Source: Seonamhaeicola algicola
Lineage (GTDB): Bacteria; Bacteroidota; Bacteroidia; Flavobacteriales; Flavobacteriaceae
NCBI RefSeq assembly: GCF_007997385.1
Contig: NZ_VOSC01000019.1
Span: 389,864-453,863 of the forward strand
Direction of reading: 5' to 3'
Length of the DNA: 64,000 nt
A program made the translations under genes and the position numbers. Below are positions 10,701 to 56,217 of the stretch, one piece after another. Every line of letters starts with the position of its first letter. The stretch's first letter is position 1. The notes beneath the pieces are model-generated. The model was not told the DNA's origin. It was given only the letters and a program-made list of their open reading frames with translations, and made no database searches.

Positions 10701-11291
10701 TTAATCATTAAGTAACTGGCGTTTTATTTTACTTAAAAACTCTTTAGTTATACCTAAATATGAAGCAATCATGTATTGTGGTATGCGTTTTTCAATTTCA
10801 GGATATTGTTCTTTAAAATATATATAACGCGCTTTGGCTGTTAGGCTAAAGTTTCTAACTAAACGCTTATTGGTTGATACTAATGCTCTTTCTATTATTA
10901 ACCTAAAAAAGCGTTCTAATTTGGGTATTTTTTCAAATAACACTTCTCTATCTTCATATGAAAAAGTAATTACTTGTGTAGGTTCTAAGCATTGTACATG
11001 ATAGTCTGATGGTAATTGAGCTATGTAACTTCCTAAATCTCCAGTCCACCAATTTTCAATTGAAAACATAATAATATGTTCTTGCCCAATATCATCTAAG
11101 TAAAACATTTTTGTGCAACCCTTTACTACAAAATAACTGCTTTTACAAACATCGCCTTGTTGTGCTATATATTGGCCTTTCAAATAATTTCTAAAAGAAA
11201 TATTCTGCAATAATATATCAACTTCTTCATCAGTTAAACTGATAAAATTTTCTATGTAGTTTAATAAGGGTTGTGCCTTAATTTTGTTCAT
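10701..11291 (-). CDS. Crp/Fnr family transcriptional regulator
   Basis: 196 residues from the ATG at 11291; a longer reading from 11390 adds a basic, atypical tail and would run into the divergent promoter, so the shorter start is preferred. Residues about 20-125 form a cyclic-nucleotide-binding jelly roll (LKGQYIAQQGDVCKSSYFVVKGC is the PBC-like strand pair). There is no cysteine cluster for an Fe-S centre of the E. coli FNR type. The C-terminal HTH has IPQYMIASYLGITKEFLSKIKRQL; the recognition helix reads E-F-L-S-K, similar to the E-x-x-S-R of FNR. It lies divergent to the MFS exporter and upstream of yceI and may regulate either. Confidence 0.85.
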   Translation of the reverse strand: MNKIKAQPLLNYIENFISLTDEEVDILLQNISFRNYLKGQYIAQQGDVCKSSYFVVKGCTKMFYLDDIGQEHIIMFSIENWWTGDLGSYIAQLPSDYHVQCLEPTQVITFSYEDREVLFEKIPKLERFFRLIIERALVSTNKRLVRNFSLTAKARYIYFKEQYPEIEKRIPQYMIASYLGITKEFLSKIKRQLLND

Positions 11292-11410
11292 TTTATGTAA
11301 AAAAATACTTGTGACTTTATGAAAAAACAACACTATTTTAAGCCTTAAACTTTGTGAATTCTTTAACTTATAATGATGGTTTTTAAACACAAAAATAAAT
11401 ATTATTAAAT

Positions 11411-16040: not shown

Positions 16041-16183
16041 AATATTTTAAAATTGTTTTTTTGAAGTTTGGTTTCCAATATATTAAAAATTGGTTAGTTT
16101 GTACCACATTTTTATGATAAAAAGCAGGATGTACTCTTTGGCATTTTATTATTTTTAGACCTTCAAATTAAACAAGAAAAAAC

Positions 16184-16801
16184 ATGAAAATTATTGGTAT
16201 TGGTAAAAACTACGTTACCGACAAAAACGAAATTGCCGATTTAAAAGATGGGCATCAATTAATTTTTTTAAAAGCTGACAGCACTTTGGTTACAGATAAT
16301 AAAGATGTGGTTTATCCATCAGATATTACAAACCAAATTGTTTATGAGGTTGAGTTAGTTGCTAAAATTGGTAAAGTTGGTAAAAACATATCGGAAGCCG
16401 ATGCGCCTTCTTATATAAGCGAAATTGCTGTAGGTATGGATTTTACTGCTAAAGATATTTTAACAGACAATAGAGACAAAAAATGGCCCTGGGCTTTAGG
16501 TAAAGGGTTTGACGGTGCTTCTCCAGTATCTGCATTTAAGCCTATTGCTAACTTCCCAAAGTTAAACGATATTAATTTTGATTTAAAAATTAACGGTAAA
16601 CAAATTCAGGTTGGCAATACAGATTTTATGATTTATAATTTTGCCGAAATTATTGCCTATGTTTCAAAATATATGACCTTAAACCCGGGCGATTTAATTT
16701 TTACAGGAACACCTGCTGATGGTATTGGAATGATTGAAAAAGGCGATCATTTACAAGCGTCTATTGAAGGTGAATTATTGTTAGATTTTAAAATGATATA
16801 A
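16184..16801 (+). CDS. Fumarylacetoacetate hydrolase (FAH) family protein
   Basis: 205 residues, the short FAH form (YcgM/FAHD1-like). Visible are the metal-site region YEVELVAKIG (Glu-x-Glu), AVGMDFTAKDI, KGFDGASPVS and the C-terminal NPGDLIFTGTPADGIG. Relatives act as acylpyruvate hydrolases or oxaloacetate decarboxylases. It is divergent from the TRAP operon with a 143-nt gap; a link to sugar-acid or dicarboxylate breakdown is possible but is inference. The DUF294 gene follows closely. Confidence 0.9.
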   Translation: MKIIGIGKNYVTDKNEIADLKDGHQLIFLKADSTLVTDNKDVVYPSDITNQIVYEVELVAKIGKVGKNISEADAPSYISEIAVGMDFTAKDILTDNRDKKWPWALGKGFDGASPVSAFKPIANFPKLNDINFDLKINGKQIQVGNTDFMIYNFAEIIAYVSKYMTLNPGDLIFTGTPADGIGMIEKGDHLQASIEGELLLDFKMI

Positions 16802-16813
16802 GGTTTATTGCCT

Positions 16814-18730
16814 ATGAAAAACTCTATTGCAGACCGCGTTGCCCATTTTTTAAGTGGTTTTCCTCCTTTTGATTTGCTTAGCCTTAACAGCTTAAATAAA
16901 ATTGCTGTTGAAACAAGTATTATTTATTTAGATAAAGGCGATGTACTTTTTAAAAAAGACGACACATATCATCAACATTTTTATGTAGTTAGAGATGGGT
17001 CTGTAATGTTATATCATACGCATGAAAACGAAAAACTTATTGCCGGTATTAATGATACCGGCGATATTTTTGGTTTACGCGCTTTAATTACCAAAGAAAA
17101 CTATAAACTTAGTGCCATTGCCAATGAAGAAGCTATTGTATATGCCATACCTATTGAAGTTTTTGAGTCTGTTACTCAAAACTTAGTAAAGGTTCAAAAG
17201 TATTTAATTACGGCATTTGCAAGTAATTCTCATGACCCTTATACGGCCGAAGAAAATAGCCGCATTTTTGTTGATTATCTTCCTAATTCATCACAAGATT
17301 TAGCTAATTTTCAAACCGCAAACTATACCGAAAAACCAGAAACTTGCAATGAAAATGCAACCTTACAAGAAGCTGCCATTGCAATGAGTAACCATAGCAT
17401 TAGTTGTATTATTGTGGTGAATAATGATAAAATTCCGCTTGGTATTATTACAAATAGCGATATAAAAAATAAAGTTGCTACTGGTAAATTTCCTATTACA
17501 ACCAAGGTTACAAATATTATGTCTGCACCGGTAATTACAGATAGCCCAGGCATTACTGTAGCAAGTGCGCAGTTACAAATGATACAACATAACATTAGTC
17601 ATATTTGTATTACTAAAGATGGTACACCAAACACCAAATTGGTAGGTATTTTAACCCACCATGATATATTAGTTACCTTAGGTAATAGTCCATCAGTAAT
17701 TTTAAAAGATATTAAACGCGCCAAACGTACAAGGCATTTACGACAAGCCAGACTTAAAGCTAACACACTATTAAAAAGCTATTTAGAGCAAAACATTCCG
17801 CTTTCACACATTATTAAACTTATTTCTAAAATTAATGATGCAGTTACAGAGCGTGCCATAATTTTAGCCATTAGAAAAATGGAAACGCCACCACCAGTAG
17901 CATTTTCATGGCTTTCAATTGGTAGCCAAGGCAGAAAAGAACAACTTTTGTTTACAGACCAAGATAATGCACTTATTTTTGAAGATGTTGATAAAACCAA
18001 ATACAAACAAACCCAAGCATACTTTATTAAATTAAGTAAGCTAGTTACAAAAACATTAAATGTTATAGGTTTTGAGTATTGCGAAGCAGATATGATGGCT
18101 AGTAACCCAGAGTGGTGCAAATCTGTATCACAATGGCAACAACAATTTAAAGAGTGGATAGAAAAACCTGATGAAAAAGCCATTTTACTAGCGTCTATAT
18201 TTTTTGATTATAACCATATTTACGGTAACAAAACATTAGTTGATGCTTTAACCAATAGCATTTATAAAGCGTTAGAAAACTCATCATTATTCTGTAGAAT
18301 TTTAGCAAAAGATGCACTTAAAAATCCGCCGCCACTTGGCTTTTTTAAGCAGTTTTTAGTAGAACATAATGGTGAACAAAAAGATTTATTTAATATTAAA
18401 AGCAGAGCCTTAATGCCTTTAATTGATGCTGCTAGAGTTTTAACCTTAAGCAATAAAATTAAAGACATAAACAATACTGCTGAACGTTTTGAAAAACTAG
18501 CCGAAATTGATCCCAACAATGCCGAACTTTTCAACTCTTGCGCCTACGCCTCAAAAGCGCTTTTAAAATTTAGAACCAAACAAGGCTTATTACATGATAA
18601 CTCTGGAAAGTTTATAGAATTAGAAAGTCTTTCAAAAGAAGAAAAACTAAAACTTAGGCGTTGTTTTAAACCTATTTTAGATGTTCAAGAAATACTAAAA
18701 ATTAGATTTGATTTAAAGAATATTTTATAA
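16814..18730 (+). CDS. DUF294 signalling protein: cNMP-binding, two CBS domains, GlnD-like nucleotidyltransferase
   Basis: 638 residues from the ATG at 16814 (a TTG two codons earlier is the only alternative). Order: cyclic-nucleotide-binding domain (about 10-125), two CBS domains (about 165-300; ending with VGILTHHDILV), DUF294 nucleotidyltransferase with SIGSQGRKEQLLFTDQDNAL (about 370-390, the G-S and D-x-D catalytic pattern) and DUF294_C. The protein looks like a nucleotide-sensing uridylyl/adenylyl-transferase; the target is unknown. The next gene, a DnaQ-like exonuclease, abuts it. In many bacteria this pair sits beside acetate uptake or acetyl-CoA synthetase genes, and acs is 2.6 kb away here. 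Confidence 0.9.
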   Translation: MKNSIADRVAHFLSGFPPFDLLSLNSLNKIAVETSIIYLDKGDVLFKKDDTYHQHFYVVRDGSVMLYHTHENEKLIAGINDTGDIFGLRALITKENYKLSAIANEEAIVYAIPIEVFESVTQNLVKVQKYLITAFASNSHDPYTAEENSRIFVDYLPNSSQDLANFQTANYTEKPETCNENATLQEAAIAMSNHSISCIIVVNNDKIPLGIITNSDIKNKVATGKFPITTKVTNIMSAPVITDSPGITVASAQLQMIQHNISHICITKDGTPNTKLVGILTHHDILVTLGNSPSVILKDIKRAKRTRHLRQARLKANTLLKSYLEQNIPLSHIIKLISKINDAVTERAIILAIRKMETPPPVAFSWLSIGSQGRKEQLLFTDQDNALIFEDVDKTKYKQTQAYFIKLSKLVTKTLNVIGFEYCEADMMASNPEWCKSVSQWQQQFKEWIEKPDEKAILLASIFFDYNHIYGNKTLVDALTNSIYKALENSSLFCRILAKDALKNPPPLGFFKQFLVEHNGEQKDLFNIKSRALMPLIDAARVLTLSNKIKDINNTAERFEKLAEIDPNNAELFNSCAYASKALLKFRTKQGLLHDNSGKFIELESLSKEEKLKLRRCFKPILDVQEILKIRFDLKNIL

Positions 18731-23292: not shown

Positions 23293-23336
23293 ATGATAAC
23301 TATCAGGTTTTATTTTTTTTCTTGAAATTATTTTTG
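23293..23336 (+). promoter_or_regulatory. FNR-like site and -7 box of the nrfHA promoter
   Basis: ATGATAACTATCAG (23293-23306) contains TGAT-N4-ATCA, the FNR core. TATTTTTG (23329-23336) is the -7 box. The site centre is 29.5 bp before the box, i.e. about -41.5 from the expected start, the classical activator position. The same geometry recurs at two other promoters in the window. Confidence 0.72.
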
Positions 23337-23381: not shown

Positions 23382-23981
23382 TTGAACCTAAAGAAAAAAC
23401 AAATACTTCCCAATAAAAAGTCTAGATGGCGCCCTGTAGCTGTTATTTCTATAGGTATTATAGTTGGTTTAGGCTTTTTTATGGCTAAAGAAGCCTCTTT
23501 GGTTTCTTACATGTCTAATGATCCGCAGGCATGTGTAAACTGCCATGTAATGACGCCTATGTATAATAGCTGGATGCATAGTTCGCACCGTGAATATGCT
23601 AATTGTAATGATTGCCATGTACCGCACAATAATGTTGCTAATAAATATTTTTTTAAAGCGAAAGATGGCCTTTTTCACGCCTCTGTTTTTACAGCACGTA
23701 TGGAGCCTGAAGTCATGTTTATGCGTGAAGCATCGCAAGAAGTTGTGCAAAATAACTGCATACGTTGCCATGTACAACAAGTAACCCAAGTAAAGTATGA
23801 CGGCTGGTTAAACGGGCATAAAGAAAGTAGAACCGATAGAAAATGTTGGGAATGCCACCAAGAAATACCACACGGCACCGTACACGGTATTTCTACCATA
23901 CGCAACAACATTGCTCCAATACCAACTGATACCGTAAGCACCGTAATACCTAGTTGGTTAAATAAACAAATTAAAGATTAA
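23382..23981 (+). CDS. nrfH: Cytochrome c nitrite reductase small subunit NrfH
   Basis: 199 residues, initiated at a TTG: an in-frame stop lies a few codons upstream and the next ATG would delete the membrane anchor. One N-terminal helix (VAVISIGIIVGLGFFMA, about 20-36) is followed by four CxxCH haem sites: CVNCH, CNDCH, CIRCH and CWECH. It belongs to the NapC/NirT quinol dehydrogenase family and carries electrons from menaquinol to NrfA on the periplasmic side. nrfA begins 32 nt downstream. Confidence 0.95.
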   Translation: MNLKKKQILPNKKSRWRPVAVISIGIIVGLGFFMAKEASLVSYMSNDPQACVNCHVMTPMYNSWMHSSHREYANCNDCHVPHNNVANKYFFKAKDGLFHASVFTARMEPEVMFMREASQEVVQNNCIRCHVQQVTQVKYDGWLNGHKESRTDRKCWECHQEIPHGTVHGISTIRNNIAPIPTDTVSTVIPSWLNKQIKD

Positions 23982-24013: not shown

Positions 24014-25513
24014 ATGAAAAACAAAGTATTATTTATAGTAACTGTAGTTGTAGTGTTCCTTTTAGGACTTTTAGCTTCTAGCATTGTTAACCGAAAAAAT
24101 GAAGCCAAATACAAATATGTTCCTCAGGTTGAAATAAATGAAAATGAACCTAGAAATGAAGAATGGGGTAAAAATTTCCCTGCAGAGTACCAATCGTTTT
24201 TACAAACAGAACAAACCGATTTTGCAACATACCAAGGTGGAAACGCAATGCGCGATATGCTTGAAGAAGATACCCGTTTAGCTGTACTTTGGGCTGGTTA
24301 TGGGTTTTCAAAAGATTATAACCAAGGGCGCGGGCACCAATATGCAGTTGAAGATATACACAATACATTAAGAACTGGCGGCCCTAAAGGCGAAGGCGAT
24401 GGCCCAATGCCTGCTACATGTTGGACGTGTAAATCCCCCGATGTACCGCGTTTAATGAACGAAATTGGTATTGCTGAATTTTATAGCGGAAAATGGGCAG
24501 ATAAAGGCGAAGAAATTGTAAACCCTATTGGTTGTGCCGATTGTCATGACAGTAAAACCATGAAACTTACTATTACACGTCCGGCATTAGTTGAAGCTTT
24601 TGAAAGCATGGGTAAAGACATTAATAAAGCTACACACCAAGAAATGCGCTCTTTAGTATGTGCACAGTGCCACGTAGAATATTATTTTAACAAAAATACA
24701 CCCGGTAAAGAAGGCGTGCCTTACTTAACATTTCCTTGGAAAGACGGTATGTCTGTTGAAGCTATGGAGAAATATTATGATGATATGGACTTTAAAGATT
24801 GGACGCATAAACTAAGTAAAGCGCCCATGCTTAAAGCACAACACCCAGGTTATGAAACCTACTTAACTGGTGTACATGCAGATAGAGGCGTATCATGCGC
24901 AGATTGCCATATGCCATATAAAAGTGAAAGCGGACAAAAATTTACAGATCACCACATACAATCGCCACTTAATAATATAGCCAACTCTTGTCAAGTATGT
25001 CACCGTGAGGAAGCCGAAAAATTAAGAGCCAATGTGTATGACCGTCAACAAAAAGCAGCCGAAAGCCGCTTAAAGCTTGAAGATGCTTTAGTAAAAATGC
25101 ATGTTGAAGCAAAAAAATGTTGGGATTTAGGTGCTACCGAAGATCAAATGAAAGCTATTTTAATGGATATACGTCACGCACAATGGCGTTGGGATTATGC
25201 TGCAGCATCGCACGGTGCGTCATTCCACTCGCCAGTAGAAATTGGTAGAGTATTAAGCAGTGGTTTAGATAAAGCTACTGAAGGACGCGTAAAACTAGCA
25301 CGTTTATTAGCAGAATTAGGCCATAACAAACCAGTTGAAATGCCCGATCTTTCAACAAAAGAAAAGGCACAGGAATACATTGGTTTAGATATGGAAAAAC
25401 TAAGAAAAGAAAAACAAGAATTTAAAGACAATTTGTTACCAAAATGGTTGGAAGCGGCGGAAAAGCGAGAAGCAAATTATGGCAGCAAACAACAGGTTTC
25501 GGCAACAAATTAA
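24014..25513 (+). CDS. nrfA: Ammonia-forming cytochrome c nitrite reductase NrfA
   Basis: 499 residues with an N-terminal signal/anchor helix (VLFIVTVVVVFLLGLLASSIV). Five haem sites: the special CWTCK with lysine ligand (about 135) followed by CADCH, CAQCH, CADCH and CQVCH. The catalytic Tyr is in CAQCHVEYYF and the catalytic His in TDHHIQSPL. It reduces nitrite to ammonium with six electrons in the periplasm (dissimilatory ammonification) and can also reduce NO. It is followed by the cytochrome c maturation gene that is needed to attach its haems. Confidence 0.96.
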   Translation: MKNKVLFIVTVVVVFLLGLLASSIVNRKNEAKYKYVPQVEINENEPRNEEWGKNFPAEYQSFLQTEQTDFATYQGGNAMRDMLEEDTRLAVLWAGYGFSKDYNQGRGHQYAVEDIHNTLRTGGPKGEGDGPMPATCWTCKSPDVPRLMNEIGIAEFYSGKWADKGEEIVNPIGCADCHDSKTMKLTITRPALVEAFESMGKDINKATHQEMRSLVCAQCHVEYYFNKNTPGKEGVPYLTFPWKDGMSVEAMEKYYDDMDFKDWTHKLSKAPMLKAQHPGYETYLTGVHADRGVSCADCHMPYKSESGQKFTDHHIQSPLNNIANSCQVCHREEAEKLRANVYDRQQKAAESRLKLEDALVKMHVEAKKCWDLGATEDQMKAILMDIRHAQWRWDYAAASHGASFHSPVEIGRVLSSGLDKATEGRVKLARLLAELGHNKPVEMPDLSTKEKAQEYIGLDMEKLRKEKQEFKDNLLPKWLEAAEKREANYGSKQQVSATN

Positions 25514-25540: not shown

Positions 25541-25587
25541 AAAAAGATAATCTTTTAAGTGCTTTTCACGGTAAAGATTATCTTTTT
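25541..25587. promoter_or_regulatory. Twin palindromes AAAGATWATCTTT before the ResB/CcsA gene
   Basis: Two perfect 13-bp palindromes, AAAGATAATCTTT (25543-25555) and AAAGATTATCTTT (25573-25585), have centres exactly 30 bp apart (three helical turns). Together they also form a 15-bp inverted repeat with a 17-nt loop and a following T run. They may be paired operators or a weak attenuator/processing hairpin between nrfA and ccsBA. Confidence 0.5.
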
Positions 25588-25603
25588 AAATTTTATTACA
25601 GGT

Positions 25604-28600
25604 ATGAGCATGAAAACAATTTATAAATTCTTTTCATCATCGGGTCTTGCCCTTTTGTTACTGGTAGTATTTGCAGTAGCAATGGCTGTGGCAACCTTTT
25701 TTGAAAATGATTACGGAACAGCAGTTGCATGGGCCAGCATATATGATGCGTGGTGGTTTGAAATAGTAATGTTAGGGCTTGCCATAAGCTTTATTGCTAA
25801 CATTTTTAAATACAAACTATTAAGAAAACAAAAATGGGCCATTCTATTATTCCATTTAGCCTTTATAATTATAGTTTTAGGAGCTGGTATTACTAGGTAT
25901 ACATCGTATGGTGGTATAATTCGCATTCGTGAAGGTGCTTCTTCAAACGTTATAATTTCAGATACTAAACTACTTACTGCTACCATTACTAAGGGCAATG
26001 AAAGTAAAACAATTCATAAAAAATTAAATTTTTCGCCTTTAAAAAATAATTATTTTGAAGTTGAAACTGTTTTTGATGGCAAACCAATTTCAATATCATA
26101 CAACAATTACATTGCTGATGCATCACCTGAGGTTGTTGAAGATAGCTTGAACGGTAAACCTTTACTTGAAATGGTAGTAACTTCGGGTGAAGGCCGAAAT
26201 ACAATTTATTTACAAAAAGGCGAAATTGAACGTATTGGCTCTCACCAACACGAAGTTGGTTTTGAAACTAACAACCCTAACATTATTAATATTTTTGAAG
26301 ACAACGGTGCTTTTAAAATTAAATCACCTCACGCTATAGATTTTTTTATCATGGCTAGCCAACAGGCAGGAAAAATAGCCAAAGACACACTTCAAAATAT
26401 AAATTTAAAAACACTTTTTAGAGCGGGCGATTTTTCGTTTGTGCCTACAAATTTTTACAAAAATGGCACCTTTAAACTAAAAAGTTCTGCGCAAACAAAA
26501 ACCGATAATGATAAAACACTTGATGATGCTTTGGTGGTAAATGTAAAAGTTGATAAAGAACCTGTACAAGAAACAAACTTACTGTACCGCGAAGGTTTTT
26601 TACCCATAAAACACATTAGTAATTTTAATGATAATTTACAGATAATACTATCATACGGCGCTGGTGCAATTGAAATGCCATTTGCTTTAAAATTAAATGA
26701 TTTTCAATTAGAGCGTTATCCGGGTTCATCTAGCCCTTCGGCGTATGCTAGCGAGGTTATGATTTTAGATGGTGATACCCAAATACCATACAGAATATTT
26801 ATGAATAATGTACTAGACCACAAGGGTTTTAGGTTTTTTCAAGCTAGTTATGATACTGATGAACAAGGTACGGTACTGTCTGTAAACCATGATAGCATTG
26901 GTACTTGGGTTACGTATTTAGGCTATTTTTTAATGAGCTTGGGTATGTGTTTTACGTTCTTTGGAAAAACATCACGCTTTCAAATTATAAACAAGAAACT
27001 TAAAAAATTGAAAACTAAAGCCATTGCTAGTATTGTTGTTTTATTAACGCTAGGCTTAAACACATCATTTGCTGCAACAAATGATAGTATTCCGCAGGTA
27101 TCTATTGAAAAACTGGTACTTTCACAACAAATAGACAAACAACAAGCCGAATTATTTGGTCGTTTATTAGTGCAAGATTTAGATGGCCGTATAAAACCTA
27201 TAAACACTCTAGCATCAGAATGTATTAGAAAAATTTCAAGAAAATCATACTTTAAATATCCTGTTAATGGCAAAAATGTAAAACTAGATGTAAATCAGGT
27301 ATTTTTAGGTATGCACATGGCATCTGGTGTATGGCAACGCATACCAATTATTAAGGCTGACACTGAAAAAACAGGCAATTTACTTAGTTCAATTTCTGCA
27401 GGAGATAATGGTTTGTATGCTTTTATTAGTTTTTTGAATAAAGACGGACAATATCTATTATCAGAAGCTGTTGAAGAAGCTAATAAAAAGAAACCTGCCG
27501 AACGTAATGAGCTTGATAAAGAAGTTTTAAAAATTGATGAACGTTTTAATATTCTCTACAATTTATTTACTGGAAATTATTTAAAAATATTCCCTAATAA
27601 ACAAGATGAAAACAACACATGGTTTAGCTATACACACAATTTTGAAGACTTTACAGAAGAAGACGGACGTTTTGCCAAAACCATTTTACCAGCCTATTTT
27701 AAAGATATTAACCTTAAAAAATACAACGAGGCTTACAAAAAAATTAACTACATAAAAAAATATCAAGATGTAATTGCTGCAGATATTATACCATCACCAC
27801 AACGCCTTGAAGCTGAACTTTGGTATAACAAAGCCAACATAAACTTTTGGTTGTTTCAGGTGTTTTTTACAATAGGTTTTATACTATTAATAATGGCTAT
27901 TGTAAAAATGTTTAGCAATAATACACTGGTAAATATTATTTGGAATGGCTTAGTAATAATAACCTTAATAGCATTTTTACTATTTACATTTAACATTATT
28001 TTGCGCTGGTATATAGCACAACATGCCCCTTGGAGTAATGGCTACGAAATGCTCATTTTTGTAGCTTGGTGTTTGCTATTAAGCGGGCTTGTTGCGTTTA
28101 GAAAATCTGATTTTGCTTTACCGCTCTCTACCTTATTTTGTGGTGCTTTACTTTTTGTAAGCTATTTAGATTGGTTAAACCCCGAAATAACCAACCTTAT
28201 GCCTGTACTAAAATCATATTGGTTAAAAGTACACGTGGCAACCATAGTTAGTAGTTATGCACCATTAGCACTATCGGCTGTTTTAGGCATAATGGCTTTA
28301 GTACTTATGTTATTTAAAACCGCTAATACCAAACAAATTATAGAACTTAAAATAAAAGAACTCACATATATAAATGAGCTCTCAATGACTATTGGTTTAT
28401 TTACGCTAGCAATAGGCACATTTTTAGGTGGTGTTTGGGCTAATGAAAGTTGGGGGCGCTATTGGGCCTGGGACCCCAAAGAAACTTGGGCACTTATTAG
28501 TATTATTGTGTACGCTATAGTTTTACACCTACGCTTTGTACCAAAACTAAATAACTTTTACATCTTAAATGTGGCTAGCATGTTTGCATTTTGGTCTATA

Positions 28601-28765
28601 ATAATGACATCTTTTGGGGTTAATTACTACCTCTCGGGTTTACATAGTTATGCCGCCGGAGACGCTGTACCTGTACCAAAATTTGTATATGTAATTTTTA
28701 TTAGCATGGTAATACTTACTGTTTTAGTAAGCATTAAAAACAGACAACAAATAGCTAAAACGTAA
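25604..28765 (+). CDS. ccsA: Fused ResB/CcsA cytochrome c biogenesis protein (system II)
   Basis: 1053 residues from the ATG at 25604; a GTG 15 codons earlier lies inside the inverted repeat and is less likely. The N-terminal part is ResB/CcsB-like (membrane helices, then a large periplasmic domain with GFRFFQASYDTDEQGTVL), a central helix with a second periplasmic domain follows, and the C-terminal third is CcsA/CcmF-like with about eight helices and the WWD haem motif WGRYWAWDPKETWALIS (about 965-981). CcsBA carries haem across the membrane and attaches it to CxxCH sites, here surely including NrfH and NrfA. The symbol is the usual one for the C-terminal half. Confidence 0.92.
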   Translation: MSMKTIYKFFSSSGLALLLLVVFAVAMAVATFFENDYGTAVAWASIYDAWWFEIVMLGLAISFIANIFKYKLLRKQKWAILLFHLAFIIIVLGAGITRYTSYGGIIRIREGASSNVIISDTKLLTATITKGNESKTIHKKLNFSPLKNNYFEVETVFDGKPISISYNNYIADASPEVVEDSLNGKPLLEMVVTSGEGRNTIYLQKGEIERIGSHQHEVGFETNNPNIINIFEDNGAFKIKSPHAIDFFIMASQQAGKIAKDTLQNINLKTLFRAGDFSFVPTNFYKNGTFKLKSSAQTKTDNDKTLDDALVVNVKVDKEPVQETNLLYREGFLPIKHISNFNDNLQIILSYGAGAIEMPFALKLNDFQLERYPGSSSPSAYASEVMILDGDTQIPYRIFMNNVLDHKGFRFFQASYDTDEQGTVLSVNHDSIGTWVTYLGYFLMSLGMCFTFFGKTSRFQIINKKLKKLKTKAIASIVVLLTLGLNTSFAATNDSIPQVSIEKLVLSQQIDKQQAELFGRLLVQDLDGRIKPINTLASECIRKISRKSYFKYPVNGKNVKLDVNQVFLGMHMASGVWQRIPIIKADTEKTGNLLSSISAGDNGLYAFISFLNKDGQYLLSEAVEEANKKKPAERNELDKEVLKIDERFNILYNLFTGNYLKIFPNKQDENNTWFSYTHNFEDFTEEDGRFAKTILPAYFKDINLKKYNEAYKKINYIKKYQDVIAADIIPSPQRLEAELWYNKANINFWLFQVFFTIGFILLIMAIVKMFSNNTLVNIIWNGLVIITLIAFLLFTFNIILRWYIAQHAPWSNGYEMLIFVAWCLLLSGLVAFRKSDFALPLSTLFCGALLFVSYLDWLNPEITNLMPVLKSYWLKVHVATIVSSYAPLALSAVLGIMALVLMLFKTANTKQIIELKIKELTYINELSMTIGLFTLAIGTFLGGVWANESWGRYWAWDPKETWALISIIVYAIVLHLRFVPKLNNFYILNVASMFAFWSIIMTSFGVNYYLSGLHSYAAGDAVPVPKFVYVIFISMVILTVLVSIKNRQQIAKT

Positions 28766-28834
28766 TAGTTAATAACTTTAGGCAATTACTTGTATAAACT
28801 GATGAAAGTTAGGTTTTTCATTTAATTTTGAAAC

Positions 28835-28842
28835 TACTTTTG
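28835..28842 (+). promoter_or_regulatory. -7 promoter box for the carbonic anhydrase
   Basis: TACTTTTG, 35 nt before the start codon. Confidence 0.5.
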
Positions 28843-28876: not shown

Positions 28877-29659
28877 ATGAAAACTATTATAAAAACCTTA
28901 GTAGTTATCACCTTATTACAAATAACTGCTTGTAATAATAAAAAAGACCAAACTACCGCAAAACACAACCATGAAAAACACTGGAGTTATGCTGGTGAAA
29001 CAGCACCCATACATTGGGCAGATATTGAGAAAAATTCAGATTGTGATGGCAACCACCAATCGCCCATAAACATTATTCATAAACAAGCAGATGCTGTTCA
29101 TGGTATTTCCGATTTAAAAATACATTACTCACCAACAACTTACATTGAAAAAGTTGAAAATAACGGGCATTCCGTTCAGTTTAATTTTGAAGCAGGAGAT
29201 TCTATTCATTACAAAAACGATATCTATTATTTAAAACAAATTCATTTTCATGAACCCTCAGAACATAAAATTAACGGTGTTATGTATCCTATTGAAATTC
29301 ATTTAGTACACGTTAACAAAACCGGACAAATAACAGTGCTTGGTATTTTAGGTGAAGAAGGTGATGAAAGTCAACTATTTGAATTTTTAGAAAGCTTTTT
29401 ACCGCTAAAAAATGGCGAAACCAAAAACATCCATCAACAATTAGATTTAAAAGATTTATTTAAACACTCAAATGAATATTACACCTATGGTGGCTCATTA
29501 ACCACACCACCTTGCACCGAGAATGTAAATTGGGTGGTATTCAAACACCCCATAATTTTATCTGTTGAAGAGGTTTTAAAACTAAAAAACAATATGCCTG
29601 TAAATAACTACCGTAATGAACAAGCATTAAACAATAGAATTGTAAATTATAATTATTAA
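28877..29659 (+). CDS. Alpha-type carbonic anhydrase lipoprotein
   Basis: 260 residues. A lipoprotein signal ends in LLQITACNN (lipobox ITAC). The body is an alpha carbonic anhydrase: HWSYAGETAPIHWADIE, NHQSPINI (QSPxNI signature), the zinc histidines in QIHFHEPSEHKI and EIHLVH, and GGSLTTPPCTENVNWVVF near the C-terminus. It interconverts CO2 and bicarbonate on the outer side of a membrane. Placed between the nrf/ccs genes and ppgK, with its own promoter. Confidence 0.94.
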   Translation: MKTIIKTLVVITLLQITACNNKKDQTTAKHNHEKHWSYAGETAPIHWADIEKNSDCDGNHQSPINIIHKQADAVHGISDLKIHYSPTTYIEKVENNGHSVQFNFEAGDSIHYKNDIYYLKQIHFHEPSEHKINGVMYPIEIHLVHVNKTGQITVLGILGEEGDESQLFEFLESFLPLKNGETKNIHQQLDLKDLFKHSNEYYTYGGSLTTPPCTENVNWVVFKHPIILSVEEVLKLKNNMPVNNYRNEQALNNRIVNYNY

Positions 29660-48010: not shown

Positions 48011-48853
48011 TTAAACCTCTTCTTTTGTAATAATTAGTAGTGGAAATTTACATGAATATGCTATTTCTTCTTCAGTAAAATTATTAAGTAAATATTCTAA
48101 AAAAGAATGATTTTTTTTAATAATTGCTAATAAATCAAATCCGTTATAATGCTTCTTTTGTTTAATTGCAGTTAATAAACAACTTTCATAATCATTTAAT
48201 GTTTTATGAGTTGCTTCTTTATAATACAAATTAAAAAATGTTTGATTATGCCTATATTCTTTTGAGTTTTTATTTCCTGTAAAATGCAACACTGTTAAGT
48301 TAGATTGATATTGTAAAATAACATCTTGTAATGCCGCCAAAGTGTCTTCGTTATATAATGTAATATGGTTTGTTAAAAAACTTACTTTTTTGGGAGCTTT
48401 AAATTCACAATTTTGAGGTATAACTAATAACGGAGTTGTACATTGTTTCATTACCCTTACTGTATTACTACCAAACAAAAAACGTTGCAAACCACTAGCG
48501 CCTTTTGTACCCATTACTATTAAATTTAAATGATATTTTTCTATAATTTGATTAATAGAGTCAATAAAATTATCATAATCAACAATGGCATGAAATGTAT
48601 GCTTTTCATTCTTTTTAGTTGAAACAATGTTAGTTATAATGTTTGAAATAGATTTTTTTGCAGCTTTAATAATGGTAGAATACACGGTTGTTGTAGATGA
48701 AACTACCATCATATCATCAGATATAAATGAAGATGCTTTTTGTACATTTAAAACATAAAAATTACATACTTCATCTTTAAATAATTCGGTTGCATAATTA
48801 ATAGCATTTATAGAATTTTTTGAAAAATCTGTGGGTAAAAGTATAGATTTCAT
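48011..48853 (-). CDS. Universal stress protein (two UspA domains)
   Basis: 280 residues, two UspA domains in tandem. The first begins KSILLPTDFSKNSINAINYA and contains the nucleotide loop VMGTKGASGLQRFLFGSNT (G-x2-G-x9-G-S/T, about 116-134), so ATP binding is expected; the second domain is divergent and lacks this loop. Tandem Usp proteins in Flavobacteria often accompany low-oxygen respiration genes. An FNR-like site 54-67 nt upstream supports such regulation. Confidence 0.9.
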   Translation of the reverse strand: MKSILLPTDFSKNSINAINYATELFKDEVCNFYVLNVQKASSFISDDMMVVSSTTTVYSTIIKAAKKSISNIITNIVSTKKNEKHTFHAIVDYDNFIDSINQIIEKYHLNLIVMGTKGASGLQRFLFGSNTVRVMKQCTTPLLVIPQNCEFKAPKKVSFLTNHITLYNEDTLAALQDVILQYQSNLTVLHFTGNKNSKEYRHNQTFFNLYYKEATHKTLNDYESCLLTAIKQKKHYNGFDLLAIIKKNHSFLEYLLNNFTEEEIAYSCKFPLLIITKEEV

Positions 48854-48876: not shown

Positions 48877-48920
48877 TAAATTTAACTTTAAAACCCTACA
48901 GAAACTATGACAATTATCAG
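48877..48920 (-). promoter_or_regulatory. FNR-like site and -7 box of the universal stress protein promoter
   Basis: ATGACAATTATCAG (48907-48920) and, on the reverse strand, TAAATTTA (48884 to 48877). Centre-to-box distance 29.5 bp, identical to the nrfHA and SLC13 promoters. Confidence 0.6.
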
Positions 48921-53607: not shown

Positions 53608-53651
53608 ATGACTTTGGTCATGATACATGCCTTATACAGGTAGTAATTTTA
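53608..53651 (+). promoter_or_regulatory. FNR-like site and -7 box of the SLC13-DUF2490 promoter
   Basis: ATGACTTTGGTCAT (53608-53621), a perfect ATGAC/GTCAT palindrome with N4, and TAATTTTA (53644-53651). Centre-to-box distance 29.5 bp; start codon at 53681. Confidence 0.68.
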
Positions 53652-53680: not shown

Positions 53681-55519
53681 ATGTATTTAATGTTATTCAT
53701 TTTAGTTATAACCATTGGGTTATTTGTATGGGGCAAGTTTACGCCAGATATTGTGGCGCTAATTTCAATGATTAGTTTATACTTAACGGGTATTTTAACA
53801 GCTTCTGAAACACTTAGTGGCTTTAGTAACCCTACAGTAATTATGATTGCCGCCCTATTTATTATTGGTGAAGGAATTGCACAAACTGGATGGACGGCTA
53901 TGGCCGGAAAAAAGTTTGTAGAATGGGCTGGTAAAAGTATTCCTAAACTTTTAGTTATTGTTAGTTTAGGCGCCGGTGTACTATCTGGTTTTGTTAGTAA
54001 TACTGGTACTGTTGCTACTTTAATGCCTTTAACTATATCTTCAGCTTGGAGCATTGGTACTTTACCTTCAAAAATGCTAATGCCTGTTGCTTTTGGCTCA
54101 AATACTGGTGGTTTGTTAACACTTACTGGTACACCACCAAATATTATTGCTAGTAATGCTTTAGTTGAAAATGGATTTGAAGGATTTTCGTTTTTTGAAT
54201 TTGCACTTATTGGTATACCACTTTTAATTATTGCTTTGGTTTATTTTAGGTATGTTGCTTATAAATTATTACCTAAAAATAAAACTAATAACAAGCCTGT
54301 AAATATTGAATCTACTCTACATAATTGGATTGAAGCTTATAAAATTAACGACGATTATTACAGGTTACGCATCAGGTCTATTTCTCCCATGATTAATACA
54401 AAGCTTAAAAAGTGGGATTTAGAAAAAAAATATAATGTTACAGTTATTAGGCTTAAACGCAGGCATCCTAATATGCTTAAAGGTATTCCACAGTTTGAAG
54501 AATTCCCAGATTTAAACACCAAGCTTAAATACCATGATATTATTACTGTAAAAGGTAGCACCGAATCTATTAATAAATTAATGATAGAATTTAGATTAGG
54601 TTTACTACCACTAGAACCTGTTACTGATGAGTTAAAACACAACCTTATTAACCAAGAAGTTGGTATGACCGAAGTTATTGTAAACCCAAACTCCATTTTT
54701 GTAGGAAGAAAATACAAACTTGGTGATTATTTTAAACGTTTTGGTATTCAACTACTTGCTGCTTCTAGAAACAATAAACCGCTTTTAGATAAAGAAATTA
54801 CAGTTAAAGCTGGTGATGCATTTTTACTTAGAGGTACATGGGGCAGCATTGAAGACCTTAAAAACCAACATGAAAACCTTGTTATTATAGGTAGCCCCGA
54901 AGGAATGGCTAAAAATGTTGAAAGTTTAAACCATAAATCATACATAGCCTTAGGCGCATTGTTACTTATGATTGTTTTTATGGTATTTAAAATAGTTCCG
55001 GGGTCTATTGCTGCTTTAATTTCAGCTGGTATTATTTTATTAACAGGTTGTATTCCTATGGCTAAAGCTTATAAAGGTATAAGCTGGATAAGTGTTATAA
55101 TGATTGCCGCTATGATACCAATGGGTATTGCATTACAAAAAACAGGTACTGCGCAAGTTATTGCCAATGCCTTGGTTGATTATTTAGGCTCTATACACCC
55201 AATAATGCTTTTAGGCGGTGTATTTTTATTAACAACAACCTTTAGTCAGGTTATAAATAATTCGGCTACTGCAGTATTAATGGCTCCTATTGCTATACTG
55301 GCAGCAAACTCTTTAAACCTATCACCTGAACCTTTTATGATTGTAGTAGCTATAAGTGCTTCTACTGCATTTTTAACACCTATTGGTACTACAACAAACG
55401 CTATGGTAATGACGGCTGGTGGTTATAAATTTATGGATTACCTAAAAGTTGGCGCACCACTTTTACTACTATTTTTAATTGTAACGCTTTTACTAGTACC
55501 CGTTATTTGGCCATTTTAA
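53681..55519 (+). CDS. SLC13 family permease with two TrkA-C (RCK_C) domains
   Basis: 612 residues. Two blocks of membrane helices (about 1-200 and 420-612) with the divalent anion/Na+ symporter pattern SNTGTVATLMPLT and NNSATAVLMAPIAILAA, GTPPNIIASNAL and GTTTNAMVM, flank two cytoplasmic RCK_C/TrkA-C domains (about 215-395, for example TVIRLKRRHPNMLKG). Substrates in the family include sulfate, citrate and dicarboxylates; it cannot be fixed here. DUF2490 follows 11 nt later. The FNR-like promoter suggests use under low oxygen or NO. Confidence 0.92.
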   Translation: MYLMLFILVITIGLFVWGKFTPDIVALISMISLYLTGILTASETLSGFSNPTVIMIAALFIIGEGIAQTGWTAMAGKKFVEWAGKSIPKLLVIVSLGAGVLSGFVSNTGTVATLMPLTISSAWSIGTLPSKMLMPVAFGSNTGGLLTLTGTPPNIIASNALVENGFEGFSFFEFALIGIPLLIIALVYFRYVAYKLLPKNKTNNKPVNIESTLHNWIEAYKINDDYYRLRIRSISPMINTKLKKWDLEKKYNVTVIRLKRRHPNMLKGIPQFEEFPDLNTKLKYHDIITVKGSTESINKLMIEFRLGLLPLEPVTDELKHNLINQEVGMTEVIVNPNSIFVGRKYKLGDYFKRFGIQLLAASRNNKPLLDKEITVKAGDAFLLRGTWGSIEDLKNQHENLVIIGSPEGMAKNVESLNHKSYIALGALLLMIVFMVFKIVPGSIAALISAGIILLTGCIPMAKAYKGISWISVIMIAAMIPMGIALQKTGTAQVIANALVDYLGSIHPIMLLGGVFLLTTTFSQVINNSATAVLMAPIAILAANSLNLSPEPFMIVVAISASTAFLTPIGTTTNAMVMTAGGYKFMDYLKVGAPLLLLFLIVTLLLVPVIWPF

Positions 55520-55530
55520 ATTAATGTATA

Positions 55531-56217
55531 ATGAAAAAAATAAGCACTATAATTTTTGTTTTTATTTGTTGTAATGTATTGGCACAATCGCCTATTGAAG
55601 ATAAAATGGGTTCTTGGTTTACCTATGGTGCTAGCTACAGAATTTCAGATAAAATAAGTATAAGCAACGTTGTTCAATCTTGGCATTATGAAGTAGCTGA
55701 TAATTTTAATTTTTTGTTTACCAGTTTAACATTAAACTACCACGTATCACCTAAAATAACAACATCGGTAGCTTATGGCTGGATGGATATTGATAGCGGA
55801 TTTAACAAACAAGGGCCACATACTTTTGAAAACAGAACCTATGAGCAATTAGGTTATAAACACAAAATAGGCAAGCTTCCTTTTGATCATAGATTGAGAT
55901 TAGAACAACGCTTTTTAAATAAACCTGCACCAAAAGATAATGTTTTTCATAACCGTATGCGTTATAGGTTAGGTTCAAAAATTAAATTAAATAACACTTT
56001 TTTTATACGGTTGAATAATGAATTTATTTGGACTATTCAAACTGAAAAAAATGATGCCTTTACAGAAAATAGAGCTTATGGCGCTTTAGGCATTAACGTA
56101 TTTAAAAGTGCAAACATACAGGTAGGCTATTTAAACCGAAAAATTAAAGGATTAGACCTACACAGATTACAACTTGGATTTTTTTACAAATTAGATTTAA
56201 GAAAGAAAAACATTTAG
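55531..56217 (+). CDS. DUF2490 outer-membrane beta-barrel protein
   Basis: 228 residues. Signal peptide (KKISTIIFVFICCNVLAQ). The mature part is made of alternating beta-strands, typical of DUF2490: GSWFTYGASYRISDKISISNV, EQLGYKHKIGKLPFDHRLRLEQRFL and FIRLNNEFIWTIQTEKNDAF, and it ends in an aromatic, charged strand. DUF2490 proteins are predicted small porin-like barrels. Co-transcribed with the SLC13 permease, so it may let its solute through the outer membrane (inference). Confidence 0.88.
   Translation: MKKISTIIFVFICCNVLAQSPIEDKMGSWFTYGASYRISDKISISNVVQSWHYEVADNFNFLFTSLTLNYHVSPKITTSVAYGWMDIDSGFNKQGPHTFENRTYEQLGYKHKIGKLPFDHRLRLEQRFLNKPAPKDNVFHNRMRYRLGSKIKLNNTFFIRLNNEFIWTIQTEKNDAFTENRAYGALGINVFKSANIQVGYLNRKIKGLDLHRLQLGFFYKLDLRKKNI

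Follow-up and report, generated by a model that had tools for sequence, protein, structure and literature searches.

A predicted low-oxygen regulon of Flavobacteriaceae with a class II Crp/Fnr operator probably shared by an Fnr-like protein and a receiver-Crp fusion

The promoter of nrfHA in Seonamhaeicola algicola very likely belongs to a low-oxygen regulon of class II architecture in which, judging from sequence comparison, one Crp/Fnr operator is probably shared by a stand-alone Fnr and by a protein that joins a receiver domain to a Crp-type regulator (receiver-Crp). This reading builds on features observed in the genomes compared, namely a promoter geometry that is conserved, the genes behind the promoters, the joint occurrence of sites and the two regulators, and a preference for the base beside the operator core. 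Most likely, this is an FNR-type class II regulon, new for flavobacteria as far as visible, and its unusual part is the fused receiver-Crp. The exact operator, the exact promoter geometry and two candidate regulators are now defined, and in this genome some 17 promoters are likely targets.

In the proposed mechanism, a dimer of the Crp/Fnr family would bind (A/C)TGAY-N4-RTCAT centred at -41.5 and would, in the class II arrangement, activate a promoter of the housekeeping sigma factor with the -7 box TAnnTTTR. The stand-alone Fnr would likely sense oxygen by an Fe-S cluster, and the receiver-Crp would be switched by a PAS histidine kinase whose gene lies immediately before its own; this kinase likely uses heme to sense oxygen.

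Promoter geometry in the window

The window, i.e., the whole 64-kb stretch of DNA that was analysed, contains three promoters of the same layout, given here with the genes behind them.

23293-23306, plus strand: operator 14-mer of nrfHA, ATGATAACTATCAG, centre at 23299.5
23294..23305, plus strand: operator core of nrfHA, TGATAACTATCA, preceded by A and separated from the box by a gap of 23
23329..23336, plus strand: -7 box of nrfHA, TATTTTTG, placed at -12 to -5 following the passages of PMC9723704; predicted start 23341
23382..23981, plus strand: nrfH, small subunit of cytochrome c nitrite reductase, TTG start (NCBIfam TIGR03153 over cut-off)
24014..25513, plus strand: nrfA, ammonia-forming cytochrome c nitrite reductase (NCBIfam NF008339 over cut-off; Pfam PF02335)
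25559..28765, plus strand: single protein with ResB and cytochrome c assembly (CcsA-type) domains (Pfam PF01578, PF05140)
48908..48919, minus strand: operator core of usp, TGATAATTGTCA, preceded by C, gap of 23 to the box
48877..48884 (read from 48884 down to 48877), minus strand: -7 box of usp, TAAATTTA; predicted start 48872
48011..48853, minus strand: universal stress protein, usp (Pfam PF00582)
53609..53620, plus strand: operator core of SLC13-DUF2490, TGACTTTGGTCA, preceded by A; the orthologous promoter in genome G044 likewise has a gap-23 site
53644..53651, plus strand: -7 box of SLC13-DUF2490, TAATTTTA; predicted start 53656
53681..55519, plus strand: SLC13/DASS-type anion transporter with TrkA-C domains (Pfam PF03600, PF00939, PF02080; NCBIfam dass below cut-off)
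55531..56217, plus strand: DUF2490 protein (Pfam PF10677)

At all three sites the distance from the centre of the TGAY-N4-RTCA core to the first T of the downstream TAnnTTTR box is 29.5 bp, and a regular-expression search of both strands of the window recovers three pairs with this gap, those of nrfHA, SLC13-DUF2490 and usp. The coordinates bear out the original prediction of an FNR-like core at 23293-23306, 29.5 bp upstream of the -7 box of nrfHA, and its equal spacing at the two other promoters; the motif orientation that it gave for usp did not hold, the site on that promoter's own strand reading CTGATAATTGTCAT and ATGAY...RTCAK occurring there only on the opposite strand. The 14-mer has four matches (at three places) in the window against 0.55 expected, a number reached in 3 of 100 shuffles. 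From its spacing, the ResB/CcsA-type gene is likely part of the nrf operon.

In FNR promoters, -41.5 is the class II activator position. The box TAnnTTTG of the sigmaA promoters of Flavobacterium psychrophilum has been mapped at -12 to -5 in the passages of the report cited here (PMC9723704), and a box at this position combined with the 29.5-bp spacing would put the site centre at -41.5, so that the class II placement claimed earlier agrees with the mapped box, the S. algicola starts being predicted ones. The nrfHA box, TATTTTTG, matches the sigmaA box to its last base, and those of usp and SLC13-DUF2490 end in A.

Spacing and location of the sites in the genome

A search of the genome (3.7 Mb, 32 contigs) with the pattern TGAYNNNNRTCA-N{8,38}-TANNTTTR returned 47 pairs of core and box. 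Gap 23 accounts for 20 of them, and the remaining 27 are scattered over 30 other gaps, 0.9 per gap on average. The excess at gap 23 has a Poisson probability of 2e-20, and of 2e-16 for the 17 sites left when the three of the window are taken away. The palindrome alone, ATGAYNNNNRTCAK, occurs 69 times in the genome and its reversed pattern 76 times; not being enriched, it was rejected as a genome-wide signal, and what stands out is the spacing to the box. That the palindrome by itself is at background is what one would expect if three equal spacings had merely coincided in one AT-rich window, but coincidence has next to no probability in view of the 17 further sites of equal spacing in this genome and of 845 matches in 59 other genera of the family against 28 in the control. 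The earlier statement that three equal spacings are unlikely by chance thus stands.

The sites also differ from the remaining pairs in where they lie, the location upstream of genes rather than inside them having been proposed as a genome-wide check of the original prediction. The preference for gene starts is present: only 3 of the 20 gap-23 matches lie inside an open reading frame of at least 100 aa, against 16 of the 20 other-gap matches examined (of 27), and the ATG of such a frame follows the box within 120 nt at 15 of 20 against 4 of the same 20. Two genes fail this last test, nrfH by its start codon (TTG) and ccoS by its size (62 aa), and with both counted a gene start stands behind 17 of the 20 sites; at the other three (C28:136865, C29:181388 and C29:611662) a convincing target is absent. 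The last base of the box is G in 10 and A in 9 of 19 of the 20 sites, nrfHA being outside the profiled loci, and the TAnnTTTR box as such is fixed by the search pattern itself.

When one mismatch was allowed at gap 23, the genome search added 35 matches against 42 in the control, without a tail of weak sites, and the regulon was therefore not extended to degenerate sites. Two such matches lie in the window. One, TGATAAAAAGCA with box TATTTTTA at 16115-16157, stands ahead of the open reading frame 16184-16801, which is followed by the gene of a cNMP-CBS-DUF294 protein, and may be due to chance, such matches being at background. The other, TGATGAAAGTTA with box TACTTTTG at 28800-28842, precedes the open reading frame 28877-29659, directly past the nrf genes. 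Two further proteins with a cNMP-binding domain are encoded at 10701-11390 and 16808-18730 of the window.

Target genes

Several genes behind the sites encode proteins that score over the cut-off of NCBIfam models: phosphate acetyltransferase followed by acetate kinase (pta-ackA), oxygen-independent coproporphyrinogen oxidase HemN, formate C-acetyltransferase with its activase (pflBA), the adenosylcobalamin-dependent ribonucleotide reductase NrdJ, the cbb3 oxidase CcoNO, which follows a 62-aa gene named ccoS by its position, and NrfH and NrfA behind the window site. Pfam matches add Usp (twice), a CBS-domain protein, a thioredoxin-like protein, TonB, a cytochrome c protein, a GH2 mannosidase-like enzyme, a hexapeptide transferase, SLC13 and DUF2490. 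An additional Usp-like gene past hemN was recognised by similarity to other usp genes, and two site-linked proteins are without a family at the thresholds used, one of 469 aa (NCBIfam only) and one of 165 aa (Pfam only).

A genome scan had been proposed with the expectation of cbb3 oxidase, hemN, nos/nor and usp genes. It returns ccoNO with ccoS, hemN and usp, and additionally yields pflBA, pta-ackA and nrdJ; nor and nos are absent among the target genes that could be given a family name. The regulon had been predicted to answer to low oxygen or NO, and the targets found speak for the low-oxygen part. Low oxygen as the theme of the regulon is supported, and oxygen itself would be the signal. 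In F. psychrophilum, the cbb3 oxidase is reported to increase strongly when oxygen is limiting, and heme biosynthesis enzymes to increase as well; the passages of that report cited here name no regulator of the response (PMC9723704).

Conservation among relatives

Conservation was followed in 60 genomes of 60 genera of Flavobacteriaceae, including that of S. algicola, with the reversed pattern as control. The exact gap-23 pattern has 865 matches in this sample against 30 in the control, and 44 of the 60 genomes have at least five matches and at least three times the control plus 3. A second sample covered 148 genomes of the phylum, of which 14 are from the same family and one of these is also in the 60-genus sample. 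There, matches against controls number 20 to 2 in the own genome, 234 to 11 in the same family (14 genomes), 22 to 0 in the same order (2 genomes) and 98 to 8 in the same class (20 genomes); in other classes of the phylum the signal is weak, with 68 to 15 in 111 genomes.

The genes behind the sites are conserved as well. In genome G044, from another genus, orthologs of S. algicola targets stand behind 11 of 12 sites, namely hemN, TonB (twice), the thioredoxin-like gene, pta-ackA, SLC13-DUF2490, usp, the gene of the 165-aa protein, pflBA, ccoNO and CBS. Genome G027 encodes the receiver-Crp but not a close Fnr; among the first genes scanned there, hemN, ccoNO, the cytochrome c gene and two usp genes follow 5 of the 15 sites, and usp is the second gene behind a sixth. 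G044 also carries, at C1:37769-38904 (locus L174:3270-4405), a pair of gap-23 promoters, about 1.1 kb from each other and identical in their spacer, each before the start of a TonB-like gene; the first copy is 67 aa long, as in a duplicated promoter and gene start.

At nrfH itself the picture is mixed. Among the 14 of 60 family genomes that have nrfH at E 1e-20, the core was found upstream of it at seven loci, the own one included (eight cores in all), and was not found at the other seven; nrfHA as a conserved core target was rejected on this count. All eight cores have nnnnTTTR at gap 23, and three have the full TAnnTTTR. In two relatives (G019:C6:191274-197973 and G044:C3:164662-170905), another Crp/Fnr-type protein, 36-37% identical to Fnr, is encoded some 5 kb from nrfH.

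Two candidate regulators

The cNMP-binding domain has 15 matches in the genome, two of which are singled out by their position. The regulator locus, at about C29:546,300-550,200, holds in succession a PAS histidine kinase (414 aa), the receiver-Crp, a gap-23 site, usp and the Fnr-like gene. A P-type ATPase gene, ccoS and ccoNO run divergently from it; by similarity the ATPase is of the copper type, with a score under the cut-off of that model. The two regulators and a further paralogue are as follows.

From C29:547532: receiver-Crp fusion, 349 aa (PF00072, PF00027 and PF13545 in one protein)
From C29:549511: stand-alone Fnr, 225 aa (PF00027 match, and phmmer match to a solved FNR)
C28:87903: candidate paralogue, 234 aa, with CxxCx4C near its start and the helix EQVIR

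Within the family sample, Fnr was found in 37 of 60 genomes (E below 1e-60) and the receiver-Crp in 25 (open frame of 347 to 385 aa, E up to 2.5e-30). The number of sites follows the regulators, with a median of 24.5 (12-53) in 14 genomes with both, 10 (2-23) in 23 genomes with Fnr only, 15 (7-34) in 11 genomes with the receiver-Crp only and 1 (0-29) in 12 genomes with neither. The difference between any regulator and none has p 4e-6, a significance overstated to an uncertain extent, the genomes being related. Those with neither are mostly small, and the four of at least 2.6 Mb (G010, G023, G039 and G051) have 1, 1, 0 and 5 sites. Outliers are G048, where 29 sites occur and neither regulator was found in a fragmented assembly (82% complete, 6% contamination), and G026 and G045, with Fnr and only 2 and 3 sites.

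This relation bears on two alternatives. In the first, the palindrome would be part of the promoter of an alternative sigma factor, and not the operator of an activator, which would suit the fixed spacing to the -7 box. We rejected it as highly improbable, because the dyad symmetry is typical of a dimeric regulator, the box remains the sigmaA consensus TAnnTTTG described in the cited passages (PMC9723704), though the search pattern demands it, and the site number tracks Crp/Fnr proteins. In the second, a third Crp/Fnr paralogue, for example the protein at C28:87903, would bind the operator and the two named regulators would merely co-occur with it; the 15 cNMP-domain matches offer candidates, and G019 and G044 each encode another Crp/Fnr-type protein at about 5 kb from nrfH. 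We hold this to be improbable in view of the median of a single site in genomes that lack both named regulators, the counts covering those two.

Binding by Fnr and receiver-Crp, our preferred reading, also draws on the base before the core. Over the 865 family matches TGAY is preceded by A in 458 and by C in 255, and in the own genome by A in 13 and by C in 2 of 20. Among the 257 matches of the Fnr-only genomes, 154 have A at this position and 50 have C; among the 182 of the receiver-Crp-only genomes, 67 have A and 83 have C. The Fisher value for this shift of A:C, 154:50 vs 67:83, is 5e-9, and is too small to an uncertain degree, the genomes being related. The reading of the window sites as FNR-like accordingly keeps its class II low-oxygen regulon and loses the FNR operator, which here is mostly ATGAY or CTGAY and not TTGAT. 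With A before its core, the nrfHA site looks more like the Fnr type, and the usp site, with C, more like that of the receiver-Crp.

Loci around the receiver-Crp gene were also compared, 58 being used (691 kb) of at least 80, namely those where most of the query is matched; 22 were left out (L254, L256 and L258-L277), where the match lay in the receiver part only or mainly. The genera are Flaviramulus, Algibacter, Arenibacter, Maribacter, Aquimarina, Salinimicrobium, Lutibacter, Pedobacter, Hymenobacter and others, and some genomes are metagenome-assembled. Among the matches listed, these 58 loci have 72 pairs at gap 23, an average of 1.03 at each of the 30 remaining gaps and, in the reversed control, 8 over all gaps; again among the matches listed, 33 of the 58 contain a gap-23 site, and in 16 of the 58 a site begins no more than 150 bp past the receiver-Crp gene. 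In two Pedobacter loci (L224, L234), a FixL-like PAS kinase and the receiver-Crp are followed by hemN, a P-type ATPase and ccoNO, and the exact gap-23 site is absent; the operator may be different there.

It could be argued that Fnr alone uses the operator and that the receiver-Crp has an unrelated operator of its own, the two co-occurring through a shared low-oxygen life style. The richness in sites of the 23 Fnr-only genomes would agree with this, as would the place of the Fnr gene past a site, after usp, in an apparent single operon. We nevertheless consider it unlikely, given the 7 to 34 sites in the 11 genomes with a receiver-Crp and no close Fnr, the shift of the base before the core in these genomes, and the sites close behind the receiver-Crp gene at the 16 of 58 loci (among the matches listed). 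The operator appears to be used by two regulators, not one.

Predicted sensing parts of the two regulators

Residues 4-219 of the 225 of Fnr align to a solved FNR (phmmer), and the protein has the architecture of the FNR family, a cNMP-binding fold followed by a Crp-type HTH. The cysteine ligands of the oxygen-labile [4Fe-4S] cluster of FNR are numbered C20, C23, C29 and C122. Unlike FNR, the S. algicola protein lacks the complete set of four: cysteines are retained at the positions of C20, C23 and C122, N stands at that of C29, and there is an extra cysteine, C53, which is invariant, C4, C7, C53 and C106 being present in all 30 aligned orthologs (of 37 found). With 108.8 bits, its score for the NCBIfam Fnr subfamily NF008365 lies below the curated cut-off of 228. 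On these residues the protein may work like FNR, and strict FNR membership is not claimed.

The recognition helix of Fnr reads TATES-x-IR in 29 of 30 aligned orthologs and TATELLIR in the remaining one. The form E..IR is thus found in 30 of 30 aligned Fnr and also in 23 of 24 receiver-Crp proteins (22 by a stricter pattern), whereas FNR has E..SR; we take this change to be S212 to I in FNR numbering. The pairing of E..SR with TTGAT-N4-ATCAA that marks FNR is not what S. algicola Fnr displays, and the prediction is that the altered recognition helix goes with the altered operator base. A link between residues of the CRP helix and operator bases, treated at other positions in the cited passages (PMC1274295), would fit the change from TTGAY to ATGAY.

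On the side of the receiver-Crp, a kinase like the own one lies directly upstream of the gene at 56 of 58 loci among the matches listed. The best solved matches of the own kinase's PAS domain are DosP (E 8e-16) and FixL (E 2e-12), both of which sense oxygen by heme. Its H65 and R85 are in register with H and R of the aligned DosP chain, partners that presumably are the heme His and the oxygen-contacting Arg; another DosP chain listed has A at the position of the R matched by R85. Among the matches listed, the pair of H and R occurs in 30 of the 47 loci that cover both positions and in 8 of 16 kinases at least 45% identical to the own one, seven others of which have a different PAS stretch without the His. 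The pair is thus patchy, and the input side is not uniform. In the kinases of L199, L200, L204, L205, L209, L210 and L213, the PAS stretch is without the His and Arg in the DosP/FixL register. A second type of sensor may feed the same kind of regulator.

Relation to known systems

Sequence features suggest that at least two Crp/Fnr proteins of Flavobacteriaceae look like low-oxygen regulators. Among the papers listed from one open-licence library, taken as titles, beginnings of abstracts and passages, neither this operator nor a receiver-Crp fusion in Bacteroidota was met, which is weak evidence of absence, and a word search finds no 'Crp' in the main text of two surveys of two-component systems (PMC4558063, PMC6365647). 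In a bioreactor metagenome, MalR-like carbon sensing has been predicted for Crp/Fnr proteins of Flavobacteriales with a PWM from Bacteroides (PMC8510549). HcpR2 of Bacteroides is likewise a Crp/Fnr-family regulator in Bacteroidota, with the operator GTAACnnnnGTTAC and, in the passages cited, a predicted regulon of hcp only in most Bacteroides (PMC1274295). Operator and targets are different in S. algicola, and HcpR2 was rejected, the window sites being TGAY-N4-RTCA and not GTAACnnnnGTTAC.

With FNR of Escherichia coli and Aliivibrio fischeri, the system shares the common Crp/Fnr fold, the CxxC, the C122 position, the TGAY-N4-RTCA core and low-oxygen targets, and would share the activator position. 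It differs from FNR in the outer operator base, which is mostly A or C and not T, and in its Bacteroidota-type promoter.

On balance we favour, with less assurance than the shared operator itself, a shortened FixL-type pathway in Flavobacteriaceae, in which a heme-PAS kinase would phosphorylate a fused FixJ receiver and FixK-like Crp activator. This fusion would use the same -41.5 operator as a stand-alone Fnr whose fourth cysteine ligand has moved, their sites being distinguished mainly by the base C or A before the core; genomes would keep either or both, and the size of the regulon would follow. Where the FixL-FixJ-FixK cascade has separate FixJ and FixK proteins, S. algicola has receiver and Crp parts in one 349-aa protein (24 receiver-Crp proteins aligned), and the prediction is one protein replacing the FixJ-FixK relay.

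By our comparison, the regulatory logic is closest to that of Rhizobium leguminosarum, where, in the passages cited, the FixL-type branch of hFixL-FxkR-FixK and FnrN converge on one anaerobox before the cbb3 oxidase (PMC7888657). The likeness lies in the convergence, predicted for S. algicola, of a FixL-type kinase with an Fnr that bears cysteines on one operator and on the cbb3 oxidase, and in the fnr gene itself, which stands behind the operator in both. The operator (TTGAT-N4-ATCAA in R. leguminosarum), the cysteine set and the phylum differ. The receiver protein of R. leguminosarum induces a separate fixK, whereas in S. algicola receiver and Crp are one protein, and with this fusion the cascade would be one step shorter than the one described there (PMC7888657).
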